A stretch of 32,448 nt of DNA from Acidipila sp. GTDB lineage: Bacteria > Acidobacteriota > Terriglobia > Acidiferrales > UBA7541. The stretch lies in assembly GCA_010365215.1 (NCBI GenBank), contig JAAFGT010000049.1, positions 1 to 32,448 on the forward strand, in the 5' to 3' direction. Shown one piece after another: positions 5,919 to 15,521 of the stretch. The notes under the pieces were generated by a model. It was given only the letters and a program-made list of their open reading frames with translations. It was not told the DNA's origin and did not search any database. The translations under genes and the position numbers were made by a program. The first letter of the stretch is position 1, and every line of letters starts with the position of its first letter.

Positions 5919-8531
5919 TTAAGATGCGGTGACGGCTTCTTTCGCTGCGTGCGTAAAGGTGAGTGCTCCCGAGCGATCGCGATTTACGGTCACGTGTTCG
6001 CCCGGAAGGATTTTGCCCTCCAGAATTTCCAGCGCAAGAGGATCCTGGATCAAACGCTGAATGGCGCGCCGCAGTGGCCGCGCGCCGTACACCGGATCGT
6101 AGCCTTCCTTGAAGAGCGCTTCGCGGGCCGCAGGCGTAAGCTCCAGGGTGATGTGGCGCGCCTCCAGCAGCTTGTCGACTTCCTTGATCTGCAACTCCAC
6201 GATCCTCTCCAGCTGTGCTTTGCCCAGCGGCCGGAACAGCACAATTTCATCCACGCGGTTCAGGAATTCCGGCCGGAAGATGGCGCGTAGAGCTTCGAGT
6301 GCCTGCTCGCGGGCGCGCGCAAAATCGGTTCCGGCAAATTCTGCGATGGCCGCGGAGCCGGCATTGCTGGTCATGACAATCACGGAATTACGGAAGTTGA
6401 CCACGCGGCCCTTGCCATCGGTGAGCCTGCCGTCTTCGAGCACCTGCAGCAGCGCGCCGAAAACGTCTGGATGGGCCTTCTCAATTTCGTCGAAGAGCAC
6501 CACCGAGTACGGGCGACGCCGCACCTGCTCGGTGAGCTGGCCGCCTTCTTCGTAACCCACGTACCCTGGGGGAGCGCCGATCAGCCGCGCCACGGAGTGC
6601 TTCTCCATGTATTCGGACATGTCCAGGCGGATCATGGCGTGCTCGTCGTCGAAAAGAAATTCCGCGAGCGCACGCGCCAGCTCGGTCTTGCCGACACCGG
6701 TTGGTCCCAGAAAGATGAACGACCCGATCGGCCGCCGCGGGTCCGCCAGGCCGGCACGGCTGCGGCGGATGGCGCTGGCCACTTTCCCGAGGGCGTCGTC
6801 CTGTCCCACCACCCGCTGCCGCAGCCGCTCTTCCATGGTGACCAGTTTCTGTACTTCACCTTCGAGCAGGCGGCCTGCGGGGATACCCGTCCACTTGCTC
6901 ACGACTCGCGCGATATCCTCTTCGTCTACTTCTTCTTTGAGCATGCGCCCGGATTTTTGGAGTTCCCCGAGTTTCTGCTGCGCCGCAGCCATCTCGCGTT
7001 CCTTGGCGGCCAGCAGGCCGTAGCGAATCTCCGCCACTTTGGCCAGGTTGCCCTCGCGTTCATAGCGCTGCTCGTCGGTCTTGGCTTGTTCGATCTCCTC
7101 TTTCACCTTTCGCAGGCGCGCGATAGCGTCCTTTTCCAGCTGCCACCGCGCTTTGCGGCCTTGCGACTCCTCTTTGAGCGCACCCAAATCTTTTTCGATC
7201 ACATTCAGCCGCTCGCGCGAGTGTTTATCCGTTTCGCGCAGCAGCGCCTGGCGTTCAATCTCCAGCTGCAGCACCTGGCGCTCGAGTTCGTCGATTTCAA
7301 CGGGCAGGGAATCGATCTCCATACGCAAACCGGCGGCGGCTTCGTCCACCAGGTCGATGGCTTTATCGGGAAGAAAGCGGTCGGCGATATAACGCTGCGA
7401 AAGTGTGGCCGCCGCGACAATCGCCGCGTCCTTGATGCGCACGCCGTGGTGCACTTCATAACGTTCTTTGAGGCCCCGCAGAATGGCAATGGTGTCTTCT
7501 ACGGAAGGCTCGCCCACCTGCACGGGCTGGAAGCGGCGCTCCAGTGCCGGATCTTTCTCGATGTATTTGCGGTATTCGTTGAGCGTGGTGGCGCCGATGG
7601 CGCGAAGCTCGCCGCGCGCCAGCGCCGGCTTCAGCATATTGGAGGCGTCCATGGCGCCTTCGGCGGCGCCCGCGCCCACCAGGGTATGCAGCTCGTCGAT
7701 GAAGAGAATGATCTGGCCACTGGCCTCGGTGACCTCTTTCAGGACGGCCTTAAGGCGGTCTTCGAATTCGCCGCGATATTTGGTTCCCGCAATCATCGAC
7801 GCCAGGTCCAAGGAGACGATGCGCTTCGGGCGGAGCACTTCAGACACATCGCCCGAAGCGATCCGCTGCGCCAGGCCCTCGACAATGGCCGTCTTGCCCA
7901 CGCCGGGCTCGCCGATCAATACCGGATTGTTTTTTGTGCGACGCGCCAGGATCTGCATCACGCGGCGAATCTCGTCATCGCGCCCAATGACTGGATCGAG
8001 CTTTCCCTGGCGAGCTTGCTCGGTCAGGTCACGCGCATATTTTTCCAGCGCCTGGTAGCTCGCCTCCGGAACCGCGGAGGTCACCCGGTGGCTGCCGCGT
8101 ACCGCCGCCAGGGCCTGCAACAACGCCTCGCGGGTCACCTGCTGCCGGGCCAGCACCTGCGCTGCGGCGTCGCGCCCGCCGCCCGCCAGCGCGAGCAGTA
8201 AATGTTCGGTCGAAACATATTCATCTTTGAACTGAGCGGCTTCCTCAAAGCTGCGCTTCAAGACGTCATTCGATGCTTTACTTAAATACTGCTCGCCGGC
8301 GCCGCTGACTTTAGGCAGATGCGCCAGATCTTTCTCAATCTCCGCGGCAACCGATTCGCCGCGCACACCGAGTTTGCCAAGCAGGGGTGGGACTACGCCC
8401 TCCTGCTGCTGCAGGAGTGCGGCCAACAAGTGCAGGGGTTCGACCTGCTGGTGGCCGTGAGTTGCGGCAAACTCTTGCGCGGCGGATAGGGCTTCTTGGG
8501 CTTTGAGAGTTAATTTGTCGAGGCGCATCAT
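5919..8531 (-). CDS. clpB: ATP-dependent disaggregase ClpB
   Basis: AAA+ chaperone that extracts polypeptides from aggregates together with DnaK. The 870-residue length is typical. An N-terminal Clp repeat domain (about 1-145) is followed by NBD1 with Walker A GEPGVGKT (207-214) and Walker B FIDE (277-280). The coiled-coil M-domain spans roughly 405-530, and NBD2 has Walker A GPTGVGKT (609-616) and the Walker B motif LFDEIEKAH. The M-domain together with the absence of a ClpP-binding loop distinguishes ClpB from ClpA/C. The start may be either of two adjacent ATGs at 8531 and 8528, with GGGAG about eight bases upstream. It lies 118 bases after hsp20 and 25 bases before htpX, so heat-shock co-regulation is likely. 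Confidence 0.97.
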
Positions 8532-8577
8532 TTGGATTCTCCCGAGGCTTCTCGTCGCGGTTCACCGGAGATAACAA

Positions 8578-8637
8578 GGGGCCGGATGATCCAACCCGGC
8601 CCCAGTGGTTACCGGCACCAGCGTGACATGACGCTGG
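8578..8637 (-). other. Two hairpins between hsp20 and clpB
   Basis: Two inverted repeats lie just after the hsp20 stop. CCAGCGT/ACGCTGG has arms 8618-8624 and 8631-8637. GGGGCCGG/CCGGCCCC has arms 8578-8585 and 8596-8603 and is followed on the minus strand by the weak T-tract TTGTTA. They could partly terminate the hsp20 transcript, or stabilise its 3' end so that hsp20 is expressed above clpB. Neither has a strong U-run, so read-through into clpB is plausible. Confidence 0.5.
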
Positions 8638-8649
8638 ATATTGACGGAT

Positions 8650-9108
8650 TTACTTTCCGTTCGAAGAGACCGCCACCTTGATCTGCTTGGGTCGCGACTC
8701 TTCCCGCTTGGCCATTTTCACGGTCAGCACGCCGTTTCGATATTCAGCATCGATTCGCTCGGGGTTTACCGTGTTTGGGAGCGCGAAGCTGCGGCTAAAT
8801 GTGCCGTAGGCCCGTTCCACGCGCAGGTAGTTGTCCTGTCGTTCGCTCTGCTCGAACTTGCGTTCGCCAGAGATAGTCAGCATGTTGTTTTCGACGCGAA
8901 CGTCAATTTCCCTTTCGTCAAGGTCCGGCAGATCGGCTTTGAGCACTAACTCCTGCGCAGTTTCAAAAATATCTACAAGCGGAGCCCAAGCCGTCAGATT
9001 CGACGCTGAGCGATTGCCACGATTCACGCCGTTCTCGAAGAGTCGGTTTACTTCATCTTGCAAAGAAGTCAAGGTTCTGATGGGATCCCAGTGAGTGATA
9101 GTGTTCAT
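8650..9108 (-). CDS. Hsp20 / alpha-crystallin small heat-shock protein
   Basis: ATP-independent holdase that keeps unfolding proteins in a refoldable state for ClpB and DnaK. The 152-residue protein has a short N-terminal arm (HWDPIRTLTSLQDEVNRLFE). The alpha-crystallin domain runs from about 45 to 135 and includes LKADLPDLDEREIDVRVENNML and the diagnostic EYRNGVLTVKMAK. A short C-terminal extension ends it. The ATG has GGAGG seven bases upstream. A good promoter and a HAIR-like palindrome lie upstream. It leads the block hsp20, clpB, htpX on the minus strand. Confidence 0.95.
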   Translation of the reverse strand: MNTITHWDPIRTLTSLQDEVNRLFENGVNRGNRSASNLTAWAPLVDIFETAQELVLKADLPDLDEREIDVRVENNMLTISGERKFEQSERQDNYLRVERAYGTFSRSFALPNTVNPERIDAEYRNGVLTVKMAKREESRPKQIKVAVSSNGK

Positions 9109-9143
9109 CGTACGTCCTCCAAGAAGTGTCTACTGCGATAAGC

Positions 9144-9172
9144 AGCATATTATATGAGTGTATGAATGTCAA
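9144..9172 (-). promoter_or_regulatory. Sigma70-type promoter of hsp20
   Basis: On the minus strand a perfect -35 TTGACA (9167-9172) is followed after 17 bases by TATGCT (9144-9149). The predicted start of transcription is near 9137, giving a leader of about 29 bases with GGAGG. An inverted repeat AGTGT-N10-ACACT (9157-9176) overlaps the -35 and could be a repressor site. The surrounding 80 bases are much more AT-rich than the rest of the window. Confidence 0.65.
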
Positions 9173-9187
9173 CACTAATCTTGAATT

Positions 9188-10351
9188 CTATAATCTCTTA
9201 AGTATGAAACACTTAAGATAGTATGTCTCCGGAACTGCAAGCAGTATGGGGTGGTCCAAAGCCTGCGTTCTCCTCTCCAGCACTGCTGTAGTTGCCTTCA
9301 CATCTTGGCTGGCCTCCAGCAGTATCTCAGCGAACAGGCCTTCCGGAATATGGTGAGAGCAGGAACAGGTAATCAAGACCCCGCCCGGGCGCAGAAGTTT
9401 CAAACTGCGGAGGTTGATCTCTTTATATCCCCGGCTCGCGGCCTCGACGGCGTCGCGAGTTTTGGCGAAAGCCGGGGGGTCGAGCACGATGGTGTCAAAT
9501 TTCCGTCCTACATCGTCGTACTGTTTCAGGATATCGAAGGCGTTGCCTTCGCGAAACGTGACGTTGGCTATGCCGTTCAGCTCCTGGTTTCTTCGTCCCA
9601 CAGCGAGGGCATCCGCCGACTGGTCGACTGCTTCGACATTCTGGCAGCGCCCGGCCAGCGCCAGCGCGAAGCCCCCGTGATAGGCAAAGCAGTCCAGCAC
9701 ATCTCCTCGCGCATAGCGCGCCGCCGCGACCTGATTCTCCCGCTGGTCCAGAAACCCTCCGGTCTTCTGCCCTTTCCGTAAATCCAAAAGGAATCGCACG
9801 CCGTTGATCTCGGTGGTGATCTGCTCCGGCACTTCGCCGTGGAGGACGGAGACTTTTTGCTCGAGTCCTTCATTGCGGCGCGATTTCGGGTCGTTGCGTT
9901 CCAGAATTCCGCGCGGCGAAAACAGCTCCACAAGAATCTCCACCAGCTCGTCCTTGCGCCGGTCGCTGCCCTGGCTCAAGGTTTGCAGCACCAGATATTC
10001 GCCGTAACGGTCGACGATGAATGACGGCAGCAGGTCGCCTTCGCCATAGACCACGCGCCAAGCCTGGGTATTTTCGACCACGCGCTCGCGCCAGGCTGCG
10101 GCTGCGCGAATTCGCTCGAAGAAAAATCCGCGGTCCACGGGCACGTCCTGACGGGTCAGAAAGCGGAGAGTGATCTGCGAGCTGTCGCTGTAAAAAGCGC
10201 GTCCCATGAACTTGCCGCGTTCGTCGCGCACGCGCACCACTTCGCCGGCCGCGGCCTGCGCGCTGCGCACGTCGCTCTTGAAGATCCAGGGGTGTCCGGC
10301 ATCCAGGCGTTGCGCCCCACGAGAGTTGATCACAGCGTTCGGCTCGGTCAT
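9188..10351 (-). CDS. Class I SAM-dependent 23S rRNA methyltransferase, RlmI-like
   Basis: Probable 5-methylcytosine methyltransferase of the RlmI (YccW) family, acting on 23S rRNA in the cytoplasm. The N-terminal PUA-type RNA-binding domain contains SRGAQRLDAGHPWIFKSDV. The Rossmann domain has motif I VLDCFAYHGGFALALAG, the acidic residue in VEAVDQSADAL, and motif IV VLDPPAFAK. CSCSHH contains the conserved cysteines near the C terminus. I chose the ATG at 10351 over a TTG two codons upstream. The length (387) is close to the E. coli protein (396). It is divergent from queA, another RNA-modification gene, with 69 bases between starts. The last codons contain the HAIR-like palindrome. Confidence 0.9.
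   Translation of the reverse strand: MTEPNAVINSRGAQRLDAGHPWIFKSDVRSAQAAAGEVVRVRDERGKFMGRAFYSDSSQITLRFLTRQDVPVDRGFFFERIRAAAAWRERVVENTQAWRVVYGEGDLLPSFIVDRYGEYLVLQTLSQGSDRRKDELVEILVELFSPRGILERNDPKSRRNEGLEQKVSVLHGEVPEQITTEINGVRFLLDLRKGQKTGGFLDQRENQVAAARYARGDVLDCFAYHGGFALALAGRCQNVEAVDQSADALAVGRRNQELNGIANVTFREGNAFDILKQYDDVGRKFDTIVLDPPAFAKTRDAVEAASRGYKEINLRSLKLLRPGGVLITCSCSHHIPEGLFAEILLEASQDVKATTAVLERRTQALDHPILLAVPETYYLKCFILKRL
9197..9217. promoter_or_regulatory. HAIR-like palindrome (candidate HspR operator)
   Basis: CTTAAGT-N7-ACTTAAG is a perfect inverted repeat with the arm length and spacing of HAIR, the HspR operator (consensus CTTGAGT-N7-ACTCAAG, from Streptomyces). The fourth base of each arm differs symmetrically, so the dyad is kept. 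It lies about 25 bases upstream of the hsp20 -35, within the last codons of the methyltransferase gene. hsp20 and clpB are known HspR targets in actinobacteria. No hspR gene is in the window. Confidence 0.45.
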
Positions 10352-10420
10352 GATCAAGTTCTAACACAAGGGCGGCGCGAGGACGATGCGTTTCGCGGAC
10401 GCGAGCAGGAAAATAACTCC

Positions 10421-11512
10421 GTGCGATTGACAGAATTCGATTACGAATTGCCGGGCGACCGGATCGCGCAGCGTCCCCCCGCAGAGCGTGATGCCGCGCG
10501 GATGCTGGTTCTCGACCGCGTCGCGCGGGTGTGGGACGACCGCACTTTTCTGGAATTCCCGAGCCTGCTGCGAGGTGATGAACTTCTGGTGGTCAATAAC
10601 ACCCGGGTGATACCTGCGCGGCTTTATGGGCAACGCGTGGTTGCTCATACCGGGCTGCTGCCCGGACCTGGTGGGACCGAGCCTAAGCCCCCGGCCTCCA
10701 TCGAAATTCTGCTGACGCGTGAGATCGAACCGGGCCTATGGGACGTGCTGGCTCGTCCCGGACGCAAGATCCGCGTCGGCGACTGGATCGCTTTCGGCGA
10801 CGGCGCACTGCAAGCCGAGGTGATGGCCAGCGGGGAATTCGGCGCGCGACGAATGCGCTTCTCCAACGCTAAGGATTTGCCAGAGCTGCTCGAGCGCTTC
10901 GGACACATACCCTTGCCGCCGTACATCGGCCGCGAAGATGAGCCTGCGGACCGCGACCGTTATCAGACGGTATTTGCTTCCTCGCCGGGAGCCGTGGCGG
11001 CGCCTACGGCCGGGCTGCATTTCACGGAAAGAATCCTGCGCGCGATTCACGAGCGCGGTGTGGAGACTTGCGAAATTACGCTGCATGTGGGGCCGGGAAC
11101 ATTCCGGCCGGTGCGCGCAGAAAATATCGAAGAGCATGCCATGCACGCGGAGCGTTACGAAATCTCCGCGCCGACGGCGGAAAAAATCAACGCGGCACGC
11201 GCCGCCGGGCGCCCCGTGCTGGCCGTGGGGACGACGGTAGTGCGCGCACTCGAGGACGCAGCACGCAAGGCCGCAGGCCGGGGCGCACAGGACATCGCGG
11301 CCGGGCCGGGCGAGGCGGAGCTATTTATGTATCCGGGCCAGCCTTTCCTGGTGGTCGATCAGATGTTGACGAACTTTCATCTCCCCAAGTCCACGCTGCT
11401 CATGCTAGTCTGCGCCCTCGCGGGGCGCGAGTTTATTCTGCAGGCTTACCGGCACGCTATAGAGGCGGGCTACATGTTCTACAGCTACGGTGATTGCATG
11501 CTGATTCGTTAA
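10421..11512 (+). CDS. queA: S-adenosylmethionine:tRNA ribosyltransferase-isomerase
   Basis: Transfers and isomerises the ribosyl group of SAM onto 7-aminomethyl-7-deazaguanine in tRNA, giving epoxyqueuosine. The frame stays open upstream, but the conserved N terminus LTEFDYELPGDRIAQRPPAERDAARML begins at a GTG at 10421. AGGA lies ten bases before it, giving 363 residues, close to the family norm of about 350. Diagnostic segments include VNNTRVIPARLYG, PTAGLHFTERIL, LHVGPGTFRPV, MHAERYEI, and the C-terminal MLTNFHLPKSTLLMLVCALAG. An Ala/Gly-rich insertion (ARKAAGRGAQDIAAGPGEA, about 280-300) is slightly longer than usual. Other queuosine genes are not in the window. Confidence 0.96.
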   Translation: MRLTEFDYELPGDRIAQRPPAERDAARMLVLDRVARVWDDRTFLEFPSLLRGDELLVVNNTRVIPARLYGQRVVAHTGLLPGPGGTEPKPPASIEILLTREIEPGLWDVLARPGRKIRVGDWIAFGDGALQAEVMASGEFGARRMRFSNAKDLPELLERFGHIPLPPYIGREDEPADRDRYQTVFASSPGAVAAPTAGLHFTERILRAIHERGVETCEITLHVGPGTFRPVRAENIEEHAMHAERYEISAPTAEKINAARAAGRPVLAVGTTVVRALEDAARKAAGRGAQDIAAGPGEAELFMYPGQPFLVVDQMLTNFHLPKSTLLMLVCALAGREFILQAYRHAIEAGYMFYSYGDCMLIR

Positions 11513-12427: not shown

Positions 12428-12907
12428 ATGTCTCTGCCCACCGAATCCGAATCGAGCCGGTTTCCGCTGGCGTTGGTGGCCGGGGCCGTGGTGGTAGTTG
12501 TTGTCCTGGGAGGACTGTTTTTCCTGGGACGGCAAAAGCCCTCCAACGCCGCGGCCACTGAACAGCCGCTTCCTTTCGCGGACGCCGAGCAGGCTTACGC
12601 GGCGAACATCCGCTTCTCCAACCCGCAGATGAGCCGAGCCGCGAATGCGCTGAACCAGGAAGTGACCTTCGTCGTCGGCACGGTGGAAAATTCCGGCGCG
12701 AGGGTAGTCCGCCAGGTGGAAGTGACCGTGGAGTTCCACGACCTGATCAATCAGGTGATCCTGCGGGACTCGCACCGCCTGTTGCGGCCGGACGCGCATC
12801 TTGGCCCTGGGCAGCACCAGGATTTTCAGATCAACTTCGACCGCGTGCCCAACGACTGGAACCGGCGGTACCCCTCCGTTCGCGTCACTGGTCTGCAACT
12901 GGAATAA
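12428..12907 (+). CDS. Small membrane-anchored protein with a beta-sandwich domain
   Basis: A 159-residue protein of unknown function. A single strong transmembrane helix (about 14-36, LALVAGAVVVVVVLGGLFFLG) leaves a short cytoplasmic N terminus. The outside domain (about 65-159) has the pattern VTFVVGTVENSGARVVRQVEVTVEF, then LRDSHRLLRPDAHLGPGQ, then VRVTGLQLE. That resembles FxLYD or DUF2393-type domains, in which a transition to the free protein begins with G-x-V-x-N. The assignment to a named family is tentative. It could be cotranscribed with the metallophosphoesterase before it. Confidence 0.75.
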   Translation: MSLPTESESSRFPLALVAGAVVVVVVLGGLFFLGRQKPSNAAATEQPLPFADAEQAYAANIRFSNPQMSRAANALNQEVTFVVGTVENSGARVVRQVEVTVEFHDLINQVILRDSHRLLRPDAHLGPGQHQDFQINFDRVPNDWNRRYPSVRVTGLQLE

Positions 12908-13002: not shown

Positions 13003-14559
13003 ATGACCACAGCCGCCAATCTGTCGCATGCCCTGGCTGACCTCCTGGAACAAGGACAGGTGGACATCCTCGAAGATGGCCGGCCGCTGGCGGGCCTCGC
13101 CGAACCGCGCTGCGAAGTAACCGAGCAGGGAGGGCGCGTGATGCTGCATCTCTGGTCGAGCGAAAAAAATCTGGTGCGGCGCGTTCTAAGCGTTACGGAG
13201 CAGACCGCGGAACACCTGCTGCTCGAGATCGAGCGTTTTGGACGCCCCAAGCCGGGGCGATTGGAGCTGCGTGCGCGCAAAAGCCAGCGCGGAATAGGCC
13301 GCCTGACGCGGGAAAAAGTTCTCGAGCGATTCCGCCAGCTTCTTGCCGAACAGTTTCCCGACGAGGACGTGTATTCCTTAACCGCCTCGCCTGATCTGGA
13401 GCATTCCTTTTCCAGCCGTTATCCCCGCGGCGTAATGGGCCGTGGGCGGAGAACCGCGGCCGTTCTGGGAGTGTCGCCCGCGGACGATGCCGCGGCGGTG
13501 GATGCCGCGCTCACGTTCGGCTTGTTGTGGCTGGCTTGGACGCGGGAACGCTCTTCGCCGGGCAGCCGGCGGGTCTCCCCGCGAGGCGCTCACAAAGTCA
13601 TTCAGAAAAATTCCTCGTCACCGCAGATGGTGGAGGGTTTGCGGCTTTTTCTACCCGCGGGAAGCAGCGCGGTGACCGCGCACCGCCTGCACGGGCTTTC
13701 CCCTGACGCGCGCATTGAAATTTACGAAGTGGACGCGGAGCGCTGGCGCGTCCGCCGCGTCGAGCCGCAGGATCTGGGCAACATCGCTTCGCACTTATCG
13801 CTGCGCCGTGAGAGCGACTCGCTGCTGGCATCCGCCGCGGAAGCGACCGCGCGCCTGAAAGCGCTCGCCCGGGAAGCGGCGAGCGCGGTCGACGCAGTAG
13901 TGGTTCCGGGGGCGCGCGACGTAGCTTTCCGTTTTCGCGGATTGGAGTTTGCCCGCTGGAGAGGCGGCGCGCTACTCGAGGTGACGCCGGAAGGCCGCCT
14001 GCTGGCTTCCAGTGTGGATTCGCCGCGGTGGCGCGAGCGCTTCGACCAGCTTGCGGCACACCGCAATCCCGCTGCGAAAGATGTGAACCACCCGCTATAC
14101 CGCGCGCAAGGCGAGCGCTGGCTGGAAAGCCTGATCCTCGGGTATCCCGCGCGCATCGAGCCGCGGCTGGACCCGCGTTTTCTCTACCCGCAGCTTCCCG
14201 CATTTTCCTCCGGCGATCGCGCCGTTCTCGATCTGCTCGGGGCCACACGGGAGGGCCGCCTGGTGATCATGGAGCTCAAGGTCAGCGAAGACATCCAACT
14301 CATTTTGCAGGCGCTGGATTACTGGCTGCGCGTACGCTGGCACCAGCTTCACGGAGATTTCGAAAGCTTGGGCTATTTCCCGGGTCTCCCGCTGCAGGAA
14401 AAACCTCCGCTGCTATACGTCGTGGCGCCGGGGCTGCGGTTTCATTCTACAGGCGAGATCATCCAGCGATTCCTGTCCCCTGAGGTGGAGCTTATTCGCG
14501 TGGGACTGAATGAACACTGGCGAAAGGACGTGCAGGTGGTGCTGCGGCAGGAGAGGTGA
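13003..14559 (+). CDS. Uncharacterised 518-residue protein with PD-(D/E)XK nuclease-like C terminus
   Basis: I do not recognise this protein as a named family. The N-terminal third (1-130) is a mixed domain starting LSHALADLLEQGQVDILEDGRP. A central part (about 150-390) is Arg/Ala-rich. The C-terminal part holds VLDLLGATREGRLVIMELK then VSEDIQLILQALDYWLRVRWH. Asp410, Glu424 and Lys426 give the D-x13-E-x-K pattern of PD-(D/E)XK nucleases, and the Gln-Ala-x-x-Tyr-Trp helix after it is typical of the NucS/DUF91-like branch. A DNA- or RNA-processing role is therefore an inference. The frame is intact and long. It has its own promoter with TATAAT eight bases before the ATG, and ends before a convergent terminator. 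Confidence 0.8.
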   Translation: MTTAANLSHALADLLEQGQVDILEDGRPLAGLAEPRCEVTEQGGRVMLHLWSSEKNLVRRVLSVTEQTAEHLLLEIERFGRPKPGRLELRARKSQRGIGRLTREKVLERFRQLLAEQFPDEDVYSLTASPDLEHSFSSRYPRGVMGRGRRTAAVLGVSPADDAAAVDAALTFGLLWLAWTRERSSPGSRRVSPRGAHKVIQKNSSSPQMVEGLRLFLPAGSSAVTAHRLHGLSPDARIEIYEVDAERWRVRRVEPQDLGNIASHLSLRRESDSLLASAAEATARLKALAREAASAVDAVVVPGARDVAFRFRGLEFARWRGGALLEVTPEGRLLASSVDSPRWRERFDQLAAHRNPAAKDVNHPLYRAQGERWLESLILGYPARIEPRLDPRFLYPQLPAFSSGDRAVLDLLGATREGRLVIMELKVSEDIQLILQALDYWLRVRWHQLHGDFESLGYFPGLPLQEKPPLLYVVAPGLRFHSTGEIIQRFLSPEVELIRVGLNEHWRKDVQVVLRQER

Positions 14560-14791: not shown

Positions 14792-15439
14792 CTAATAGAA
14801 CAGGTACTTGCGCCATTTTTCGTCGTGGCGGCCGATCAGCCTCATCAGTTGCCGCGAGGTATGCAGCGTAAAGGGCCGTGGCCGGCGCTGCAGGCGAATT
14901 CCGGCTTCCTCGGGCGTGCGGTCGCCCTTCCTGTTATTGCACTGGTAGCAGCAGGCCACCAGGTTTTCCCAGGACGATGGTCCCCCGCGAGACCGTGGCA
15001 TTACGTGATCCAGCGTCAACTCGCCCGCCGAAAACTGCTGTGCGCAGAATTGGCAGGTGTTACGGTCGCGCAGCAGGATGTTTTTTCGCGAAAGCGCGCG
15101 GCTCTGCTGGGGGATGTGGCGGTAGGACAGCAGGCGAATTACGGATGGCACCGGCAGTGTGTGCGAGGGCGAATGAACCTTGGTGGCGTTCAACTCTTCC
15201 ACCTGGGCCACGCCTTTCAAGGTCAGCACCAGCGCCCGGCGCACAGCCGTCACATGAATAGGCTCGAACGTGGAGTTCAGTACTAGAACCGGGTCCTGGA
15301 GGATGGACCGTTTCGGGGCAGCGACAGGTTCGGAGGACACACCCGGCAGCGACGCGGGAGAATGAACCTTAGGCGGTCGTGGGCGCAATTCACCCCACTT
15401 TTCGGAAGCCTTGTGGTCTTTTCTTCCCCGCTTAATCAT
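14792..15439 (-). CDS. HNH endonuclease
   Basis: A 215-residue protein with an HNH/McrA-type nuclease domain at about 120-185. The signature is CQFCAQQF, then [34 protein letters not shown]. The catalytic His is in LDHV, and two CxxC pairs hold the structural zinc. The N-terminal 50 residues are basic and low in complexity, then a conserved segment [24 protein letters not shown] follows. This architecture is widespread as a stand-alone bacterial gene with no methylase partner, so a restriction role is not supported here. I prefer the ATG at 15439, with GGAG five bases upstream, over a GTG at 15445. It ends at a strong terminator. Confidence 0.9.
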
Positions 15440-15521
15440 CTTCACTCCGCTTACCGCTGACCGTTAGATGCAAAGTCTGGTCTTGCAGGTGGTTAGATTA
15501 AATCCGTTCTCGGCCAGCCGG

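Follow-up and report, generated by a model that had tools for sequence, protein, structure and literature searches.

Architecture of the protein and its relatives

The window analysed here, a stretch of 32,448 nucleotides from Acidipila sp. (contig JAAFGT010000049.1), carries at positions 13003-14559 of its forward strand an open reading frame that starts with ATG and encodes 518 residues. This is a genuine protein-coding gene, with relatives of similar length. An original prediction, made from the letters of the window, had singled out the protein for the motif D410-x13-E424-x-K426 and for the helix LQALDYW (residues 435-441), and its length and both motifs are exactly as described there. An AlphaFold2 model of the whole protein (mean pLDDT 90.2, pTM 0.82) suggests a division into four modules. 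By DSSP, M1 (residues 1-95; 13003-13287) is predicted to be a helix with a six-stranded beta-domain, possibly resembling the NucS N-domain. M2 (residues 96-261; 13288-13785) is predicted to be a PD-(D/E)XK fold lacking the catalytic residues, M3 (residues 262-362; 13786-14088) is modelled as two helices, five short strands and a further helix that join both nuclease folds, and M4 (residues 363-518; 14089-14556) is a PD-(D/E)XK nuclease domain of the NucS/EndoMS type with its site intact.

No Pfam or PHROGs family was found for the window protein, and the NCBIfam and PADLOC libraries yielded only weak matches, at residues 405-451, with no NCBIfam model at its cut-off. The suggestion that this might be a new nuclease fusion held up, as none of the four family libraries has a model covering the protein. 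Our literature search, restricted in library and terms, found no publication on this acidobacterial protein. It is uncharacterised, and would combine the chemistry of NucS with a four-module layout that is new.

Relatives were collected from genomes of the phylum and from genome contigs. From 75 matching open reading frames, 8 repeat copies of the same gene and 10 extra members of one family label (f2) were removed. Also left out were a gene in two pieces (L050), a gene piece (L052), a weak match only (L053, from G015) that the profile missed, and a shorter relative of 395 residues (L067), which had been included in an earlier alignment of 53 rows. The 52 relatives kept in the alignment (A1) are 21-54% identical to the window protein, and the most frequent residue of a column accounts on average for a fraction of 0.42 in M1, 0.45 in M2, 0.43 in M3 and 0.61 in M4.

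The NucS-type catalytic domain

According to the excerpted text of PMC7343888, the NucS motif comprises D160, E174, K176, K44, E127, Q187 and Y191 and also occurs in RecB, with Y191 a key active-site residue. In M4, six residues stand at positions expected from this site: E371 (14113-14115), D410 (14230-14232), E424 and K426 within E424-L-K426 (14272-14280), and Q436 and Y440 within the RecB-type motif Q436-x3-Y440 (14308-14322). All six are invariant in 52 of 52 relatives. Because mean column identity across the alignment is just 27%, this invariance stands out; there are only 11 such columns (E371, Q397, D410, E424, K426, Q436, Y440, W441, F459, P476 and W506), and the presence of six NucS-site positions among them indicates that the PD-(D/E)XK motif is more than a chance pattern. 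The original prediction had correctly named D410, E424, K426 and the helix bearing Q436 and Y440, and had missed E371. M4 also has the features of a RecB-type nuclease, namely the D...ExK...QxxxY motif and an alpha-beta-beta-beta-alpha-beta core.

Searched against PDB sequences with HMMER, a profile of the C-terminal half (A3) found P. abyssi NucS (2vld) at E 0.0021, followed by Card1 at 0.012. The alignment pairs E371 with E127, D410 with D160, E424 with E174, K426 with K176 and Q436 with Q187, in a numbering that begins at the first residue of the chain as printed; of the counterpart to Q187-x3-Y191, only the glutamine lies inside the printed alignment. A profile of the whole protein found NucS at E 0.0061, and a search with the single protein returned four chance-level chains, NucS not among them.

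For profile-profile comparison we used nine proteins encoded on plasmids of Deinococcus and haloarchaea, of which eight carry the annotation NucS and one DUF91. The C-terminal half matched this set at E 1.1e-5 with a probability of 82% (9.5e-6 in a rerun), and the lowest E-value that the same profile gave among 49 decoy families was 0.051. These decoys were clusters of neighbouring open reading frames of 150-600 residues from the examined loci, some of them surely shadow frames, and 5 of an initial 54 families had been dropped for overlap with the target gene. As separate observations, a DUF91/NucS gene on a Natrinema thermotolerans plasmid (L086, 496-1986) lies 400 bases from an opposite-strand gene annotated as MutS, and on a Deinococcus peraridilitoris plasmid (L090, 515-1266) NucS is annotated as two adjacent reading frames.

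Structural comparison of the whole model with VIA-align placed 2vld_B at Z 13.4 (rmsd 2.0 Å over 107 residues, 21% identity), 5gke_A at 13.1 and 5gkj_B at 12.2, with the next rows at 9.8. The three NucS/EndoMS entries fit residues 366-509 at an rmsd of 2.0-2.4 over 107-110 residues. Ranked by Foldseek E-value, Card1 came first (4.6e-4, with TM-scores of 0.14-0.25) and EndoMS third (8.5e-3). It had been proposed that a model in which D410, E424 and K426 lie apart would count against a nuclease; the model instead fits NucS at the 2.0 Å given above, and the HMMER alignment sets the three residues on D160, E174 and K176. Invariance, profile comparison and predicted fold agree in supporting the NucS-like catalytic core that had been put forward.

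We also considered whether the protein merely belongs to some known family and had been overlooked, which appears very improbable. Weak NCBIfam matches point that way: NucS PRK04247 was matched in 21 of the 52 members (best 2.2e-4) and Rpn in 19 (best 2e-4). The Pfam model NucS_C (PF01939) stayed below its cut-off, with 6 of the 52 members reaching E-values up to 1 (best 0.03), a result that counts against the reading with two NucS-like halves favoured below. Against an overlooked known family stand the library results for the window protein described above. Moreover, NucS_C was found in 66 of 396 genomes drawn from the phylum, in 39 of them above cut-off, and by eye none of these places coincides with a strong match of the present nuclease. 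Several correspond, again by eye, to weak nuclease-core matches in other proteins (for example in G310, G222 and G160). One genome (G096, contigs C1 and C2) has five weak NucS_C matches in similar frames of about 530-575 residues, three of them within 4 kb, which look like a repeated gene family.

Taken together, the results show that M4 carries a complete NucS-type active site and fold; cleavage itself is predicted. By the known chemistry of NucS and RecB, M4 would cut a phosphodiester bond with a metal held by D410 and E424, and with K426, E371, Q436 and Y440 arranged around it. The catalytic fold and the full active-site set are thus common to M4 and EndoMS/NucS (P. abyssi 2vld, T. kodakarensis 5gke/5gkj). 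The overall design differs: NucS has about 250 residues, with one N-domain and one live nuclease, whereas the 518 residues here appear to hold two nuclease folds, one of them dead.

A predicted pseudo-nuclease in the N-terminal half

It had been stated that the N-terminal 400 residues match nothing recognisable. For the sequence libraries this stood, since no Pfam, NCBIfam, PHROGs or PADLOC domain was found in the N half of the window protein; for predicted folds it did not, because structural comparison finds both PD-(D/E)XK nucleases and EndoMS. Scattered domain matches in the N half, each in a single member among the 52 relatives, were taken as chance, as were the matches of the N-half profile in PDB sequences to erythrocyte membrane proteins (E 0.075-0.16) and TREM-1 (1.4-1.6).

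In the whole model, residues 97-261 matched residues 3-157 of the type IIS restriction endonuclease PaqCI (8em1_B) at Z 9.6. Rows below about Z 8, which can reflect common arrangements, comprised Nt.BspD6I (408-583, Z 7.8), AF2093 (Z 6.7, and 6.7-6.9 across the whole-model and N-half comparisons) and acetyl-CoA carboxylase entries on the same 97-261 stretch (Z 6.0-6.8), and there were weaker fold matches to an ASFV RNA-polymerase subunit and to Cap4. Apart from the carboxylase, we take the matched stretches to be PD-(D/E)XK-type folds, and residues 3-158 of PaqCI are presumably its nuclease domain. A separate model of residues 1-262, built from an alignment of that part, reached a mean pLDDT of 88.7 and a pTM of 0.68. 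The best rows for this model were PaqCI (Z 9.8 for 8epx_A, and 9.3), EndoMS 5gkj_B (9.0) and two XisH-type proteins (8.4 and 8.3), while YojF (1njh) matched residues 1-93 at Z 8.0; Foldseek found nothing at E 0.001 for the N half alone. The likeness of M2 to PaqCI (8em1 and 8epx, Z 9.3-9.8) is one of predicted fold, and M2 differs in being without catalytic residues.

Evidence for the loss of the site comes from comparing M2 with M4. In the model, strand 2 spans residues 142-147 in M2 and 408-415 in M4, and strand 3 spans 150-156 and 420-425. Based on this secondary structure and on the register of the profile alignments, R142 (13426-13428) would occupy the place of D410, where the catalytic aspartate of M2 is expected. 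None of the 52 rows has an acidic residue at position 142, which is arginine in 47, lysine, tryptophan and leucine in one each, and a gap in two; nor does any row have D/E/Q-x-K in the third strand at the three offsets tested. Other positions of M2 are conserved, namely R228 and W176 (45/52 each), R103 (43/52) and E242 (42/52). M2 is therefore predicted to be a second, catalytically dead PD-(D/E)XK fold.

A precedent for such a chain is CRISPR ancillary nuclease 1 (Can1, 6sce), which likewise combines a dead nuclease-like domain and a live PD-(D/E)XK domain in one polypeptide and is a weak fold match (Z 5.8, rmsd 6.2, 231 residues). The excerpted text of PMC6981274 reports that Can1 nicks supercoiled DNA and that R206E/R249E in the nuclease-like domain abolishes activity. 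As suggested for the dead domain of Can1, M2 probably holds DNA through its conserved arginines. Can1 differs in having two CARF domains and in being activated by cA4. Judging from the models, the CARF sensor of Can1 and Card1 is absent here: M1, with one helix and six strands, is not Rossmann-like, and M3, with two helices followed by five strands, lacks alternating beta-alpha units. In the whole-model comparison, the Card1/Can2 rows extend from about residue 262 to 518.

The N half may also resemble EndoMS as a whole. When modelled alone, residues 1-247 aligned with residues 22-239 of EndoMS 5gkj_B, with 182 residues and both EndoMS domains in order, at Z 9.0 and an rmsd of 14.3 Å, a deviation showing that the pair of domains cannot be overlaid as a rigid whole; 5gke_A gave Z 7.4 over 180 residues. 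The half-closed beta-barrel of NucS can be compared with M1 in this N-half alignment and not in the whole model, where the EndoMS rows reach residues 366-509 only and leave M1 and M3 uncovered.

Sequence comparison gave values inside the decoy range, and is no proof of an N half copied from NucS. Profile-profile E-values were 0.27-0.3 for the N half against NucS, 0.078-0.13 for the N half against the C half and 0.099 for M2 against M4, and the lowest decoy value with the N-half profile was 0.089. These non-significant alignments nonetheless fall in the register predicted from structure. An internal repeat sought by profile comparison was likewise in register yet not significant, and was not accepted. 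The profile-profile and structural analysis of the two halves that had been recommended has thus yielded a NucS-like C half and an N half that is matched by fold, with sequence similarity below significance.

A further trace may lie in M1, where column 59 is tryptophan in 17 of the 52 members, all labelled as the same phylum as the window and none as the same class. In many of the 17 it follows a glycine by 15 residues, the spacing that separates N74-W75 from G60 in NucS, and two of them (L044 and L056) have N-W at this site; the window protein has arginine at the column that is equivalent to W75 by spacing. Compared with the NucS N-domain, the subset of 17 gave E 0.056 (the lowest of 49 decoys gave 0.068) and ranked second by raw score (14.92 against 15.92), so that it provides no proof of N-domain homology.

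These data bear on an alternative origin, in which the N half is an unrelated PaqCI-like pseudo-nuclease with a beta-domain that became fused to a NucS-type nuclease; the enzyme would still cut DNA, with a different origin and geometry. PaqCI is the best match of M2, at Z 9.6-9.8 slightly above EndoMS, profile comparison of the N half is non-significant both against the C half and against NucS, and the EndoMS alignment of the whole model is limited to residues 366-509. However, the only entries above Z 4 that span M1 and M2 are the two of EndoMS (180-182 residues in order), with the caveat that two CtpB rows at Z 3.5-3.7 span them too; in addition, the sequence alignments sit in the structure-predicted register, and tryptophan occurs in the 17 members at the column matching W75 by spacing. 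We consider such a fusion possible though doubtful. The models favour an N half that is a dead NucS-like unit, linked to a live one in the C half, and duplication of a NucS unit is its probable origin. The suggestion of a regulatory or DNA-binding N terminus can accordingly be sharpened, being too vague: what is predicted is a beta-domain followed by a dead PD-(D/E)XK fold, perhaps a degenerate NucS-like unit.

In the scheme that we favour, the first half (M1 and M2) would have lost its catalytic residues and probably grips DNA, and the second half (M3 and M4) would carry the only active site. NucS acts as a dimer (PMC8228993, excerpted text) and makes double-strand breaks at mismatches (PMC11551767, excerpted text). 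The canonical dimer has two live sites, and each chain here would have just one, so that the simplest expectation is nicking: a protein with one dead and one live site should cut a single strand, or trim DNA with branches or flaps, and its product would then pass to ordinary repair. The most likely activity is that of a metal-dependent, structure-specific DNA nickase in repair. A more specific history is tentative at best, namely that a tandem NucS duplication in the ancestor of these lineages, followed by loss of one site (aspartate to a conserved arginine), produced a single-chain pseudo-dimer and turned a double-strand cutter of mismatches or branches into a dedicated nickase beside MutSL. 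Should the N half indeed be a dead NucS unit, the protein would represent a natural experiment in converting a double-strand cutter into a nickase, and it would offer a simple genetic test of the role of a NucS-type enzyme beside MutSL.

Inheritance, repair setting and genomic neighbourhood

In the class to which the window belongs, the A1 profile matched 266 of 299 genomes at E 1e-3 or better, 218 of the 239 good-quality ones, and 102 of 106 genera. Among the 266, 11 have a best E-value weaker than 1e-20 (as read from the list) and may represent fragments or other nucleases. No match was found in 33 of the 299 class genomes and 21 of the 239 good ones; among those listed, all five genomes of one genus label (g229) are without the gene, which looks like a true loss. 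In an even draw across the phylum, 137 of 396 genomes matched by profile and 119 with the single protein. By our own count, 21 of the 137 are weak nuclease-core matches only; 116 remain, 47 of them labelled as the own or the same class, and none of the non-matching genomes listed for this draw is from the same class. The window genome has one match. A 44-row tree was checked for the six family labels that at least two rows carry: every one of them makes up one side of a branch, with 5 label changes in total (shuffled mean 15.9).

With tblastn at E 0.01, neither the 72,556 plasmid records nor the 50,697 phage records contained a match, and viral contigs gave none with the single-protein query. 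The C-half profile found one viral contig (IMG/VR, L077), in which a homologue of 447 residues at 181-1524 adjoins genes that read as prophage and a host dtd-like gene; this copy is probably host flank at a prophage edge rather than a viral gene. A search for viral relatives by fold found none at E 0.001 (best 8.3e-3, with several MmcB-like phage proteins), and a scan of genome contigs with the single protein found three loci, all from Acidobacteria. The gene tracks host phylogeny, and appears to be chromosomal and vertically inherited.

This pattern weighs on the idea of an anti-phage nuclease cutting foreign DNA, as is supposed for the PADLOC candidate PDC-S11. Of the 52 members, 51 match a PDC-S11 model at E-values up to 0.1 (best 1.5e-9). 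In the window protein and three members examined, however, the shared part is at most about 80 residues of nuclease core, confined to positions 20-95 of the profiles, which means that the domain order differs: the core lies near the start of the PDC-S11 profiles (347-379 positions) and here is C-terminal, after 360 residues. With a gene that follows host phylogeny, is present in most of the class genomes searched and lacks matches in plasmid and phage records, and with neighbours that vary between lineages and are in many cases housekeeping genes, a defence function seems quite improbable. Inheritance and distribution point instead towards a role in repair by the host. We give about an even chance to the full reading, in which the protein is an acidobacterial DNA endonuclease, encoded on the chromosome and inherited vertically, with two NucS-like halves, one site dead and one live, that would act as a nickase or trimmer.

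A NucS-type catalytic domain is present in most searched genomes of one Acidobacteriota class, and in the one genome checked it occurs together with MutS. MutS_V was found at two places in the window genome, so that NucS-style mismatch repair would fill no obvious gap; NucS_C was not found there, while 7 of 14 control genomes match. Since the NucS_C places are distinct from this nuclease and MutS is present, the protein appears to be neither canonical NucS nor, on the evidence of one genome, a plain substitute for MutS. In its excerpted sections, a 2017 survey (PMC5290159) reports no NucS or NucS-like protein in bacteria beyond Actinobacteria and Deinococcus-Thermus, describes the isolated C-terminal region of NucS in further architectures and in certain other bacteria, and notes that haloarchaea and Deinococcus-Thermus have NucS and MutS-MutL side by side.

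Such coexistence would allow the protein to do the work of EndoMS in Acidobacteriota, cutting at mismatches as a backup to MutSL, and the NucS-type catalytic domain, the possible homology of the N-domain and the failure to find NucS_C in the window genome are all compatible with this. The presence of MutS argues against it, as does the counterpart of W75: if the alignment by spacing is right, the window protein and those class members that were read have arginine there. We regard this function as unlikely, and retain the predicted nickase or trimmer as the preferred reading.

Two copies of the gene are broken. At 8783-10446 of one locus (L050, G352) it is split near the M3/M4 border into two overlapping frames in different phases, and other genomes of the same genus label have it intact. 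At 8311-9637 of another (L052, G267) the N half and the nuclease domain form separate open reading frames between rsmB-like and truB-like genes, the former matching the N-half profile at 8.9e-10; this may be a natural fission or an assembly error, and the break in L050 may likewise be natural or not.

No partner gene is constant across lineages at the loci examined. Reading of translations gave a truB-like gene that overlaps the 3' end of the homologue on the same strand in five loci with four family labels (L041, L042, L044, L052 and L056), and selB-like and thiolase-like genes near the homologue in other lineages. By Pfam, ten immediate neighbours comprise topoisomerase I, two TonB-type barrels, a kinase, DUF4139, GGDEF, ferritin-like and NlpE proteins, and two without a family. 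The neighbours in the window are M48, Clp ATPase, HSP20, methyltransferase, QueA, metallophosphatase, HNH, zinc ribbon with phosphoribosyltransferase and PIG-L proteins, and one without a family. Upstream of the nuclease gene, at 12428-12907 on the forward strand, is an uncharacterised frame of 159 residues with no Pfam match; similar frames occur in six loci (L002, L036, L038, L050, L054 and L055), near the nuclease gene only in L002. On the other side, at 14792-15445 on the reverse strand, an HNH endonuclease gene is convergent with the nuclease gene and adjoins a gene whose product combines a double zinc ribbon with a phosphoribosyltransferase domain.
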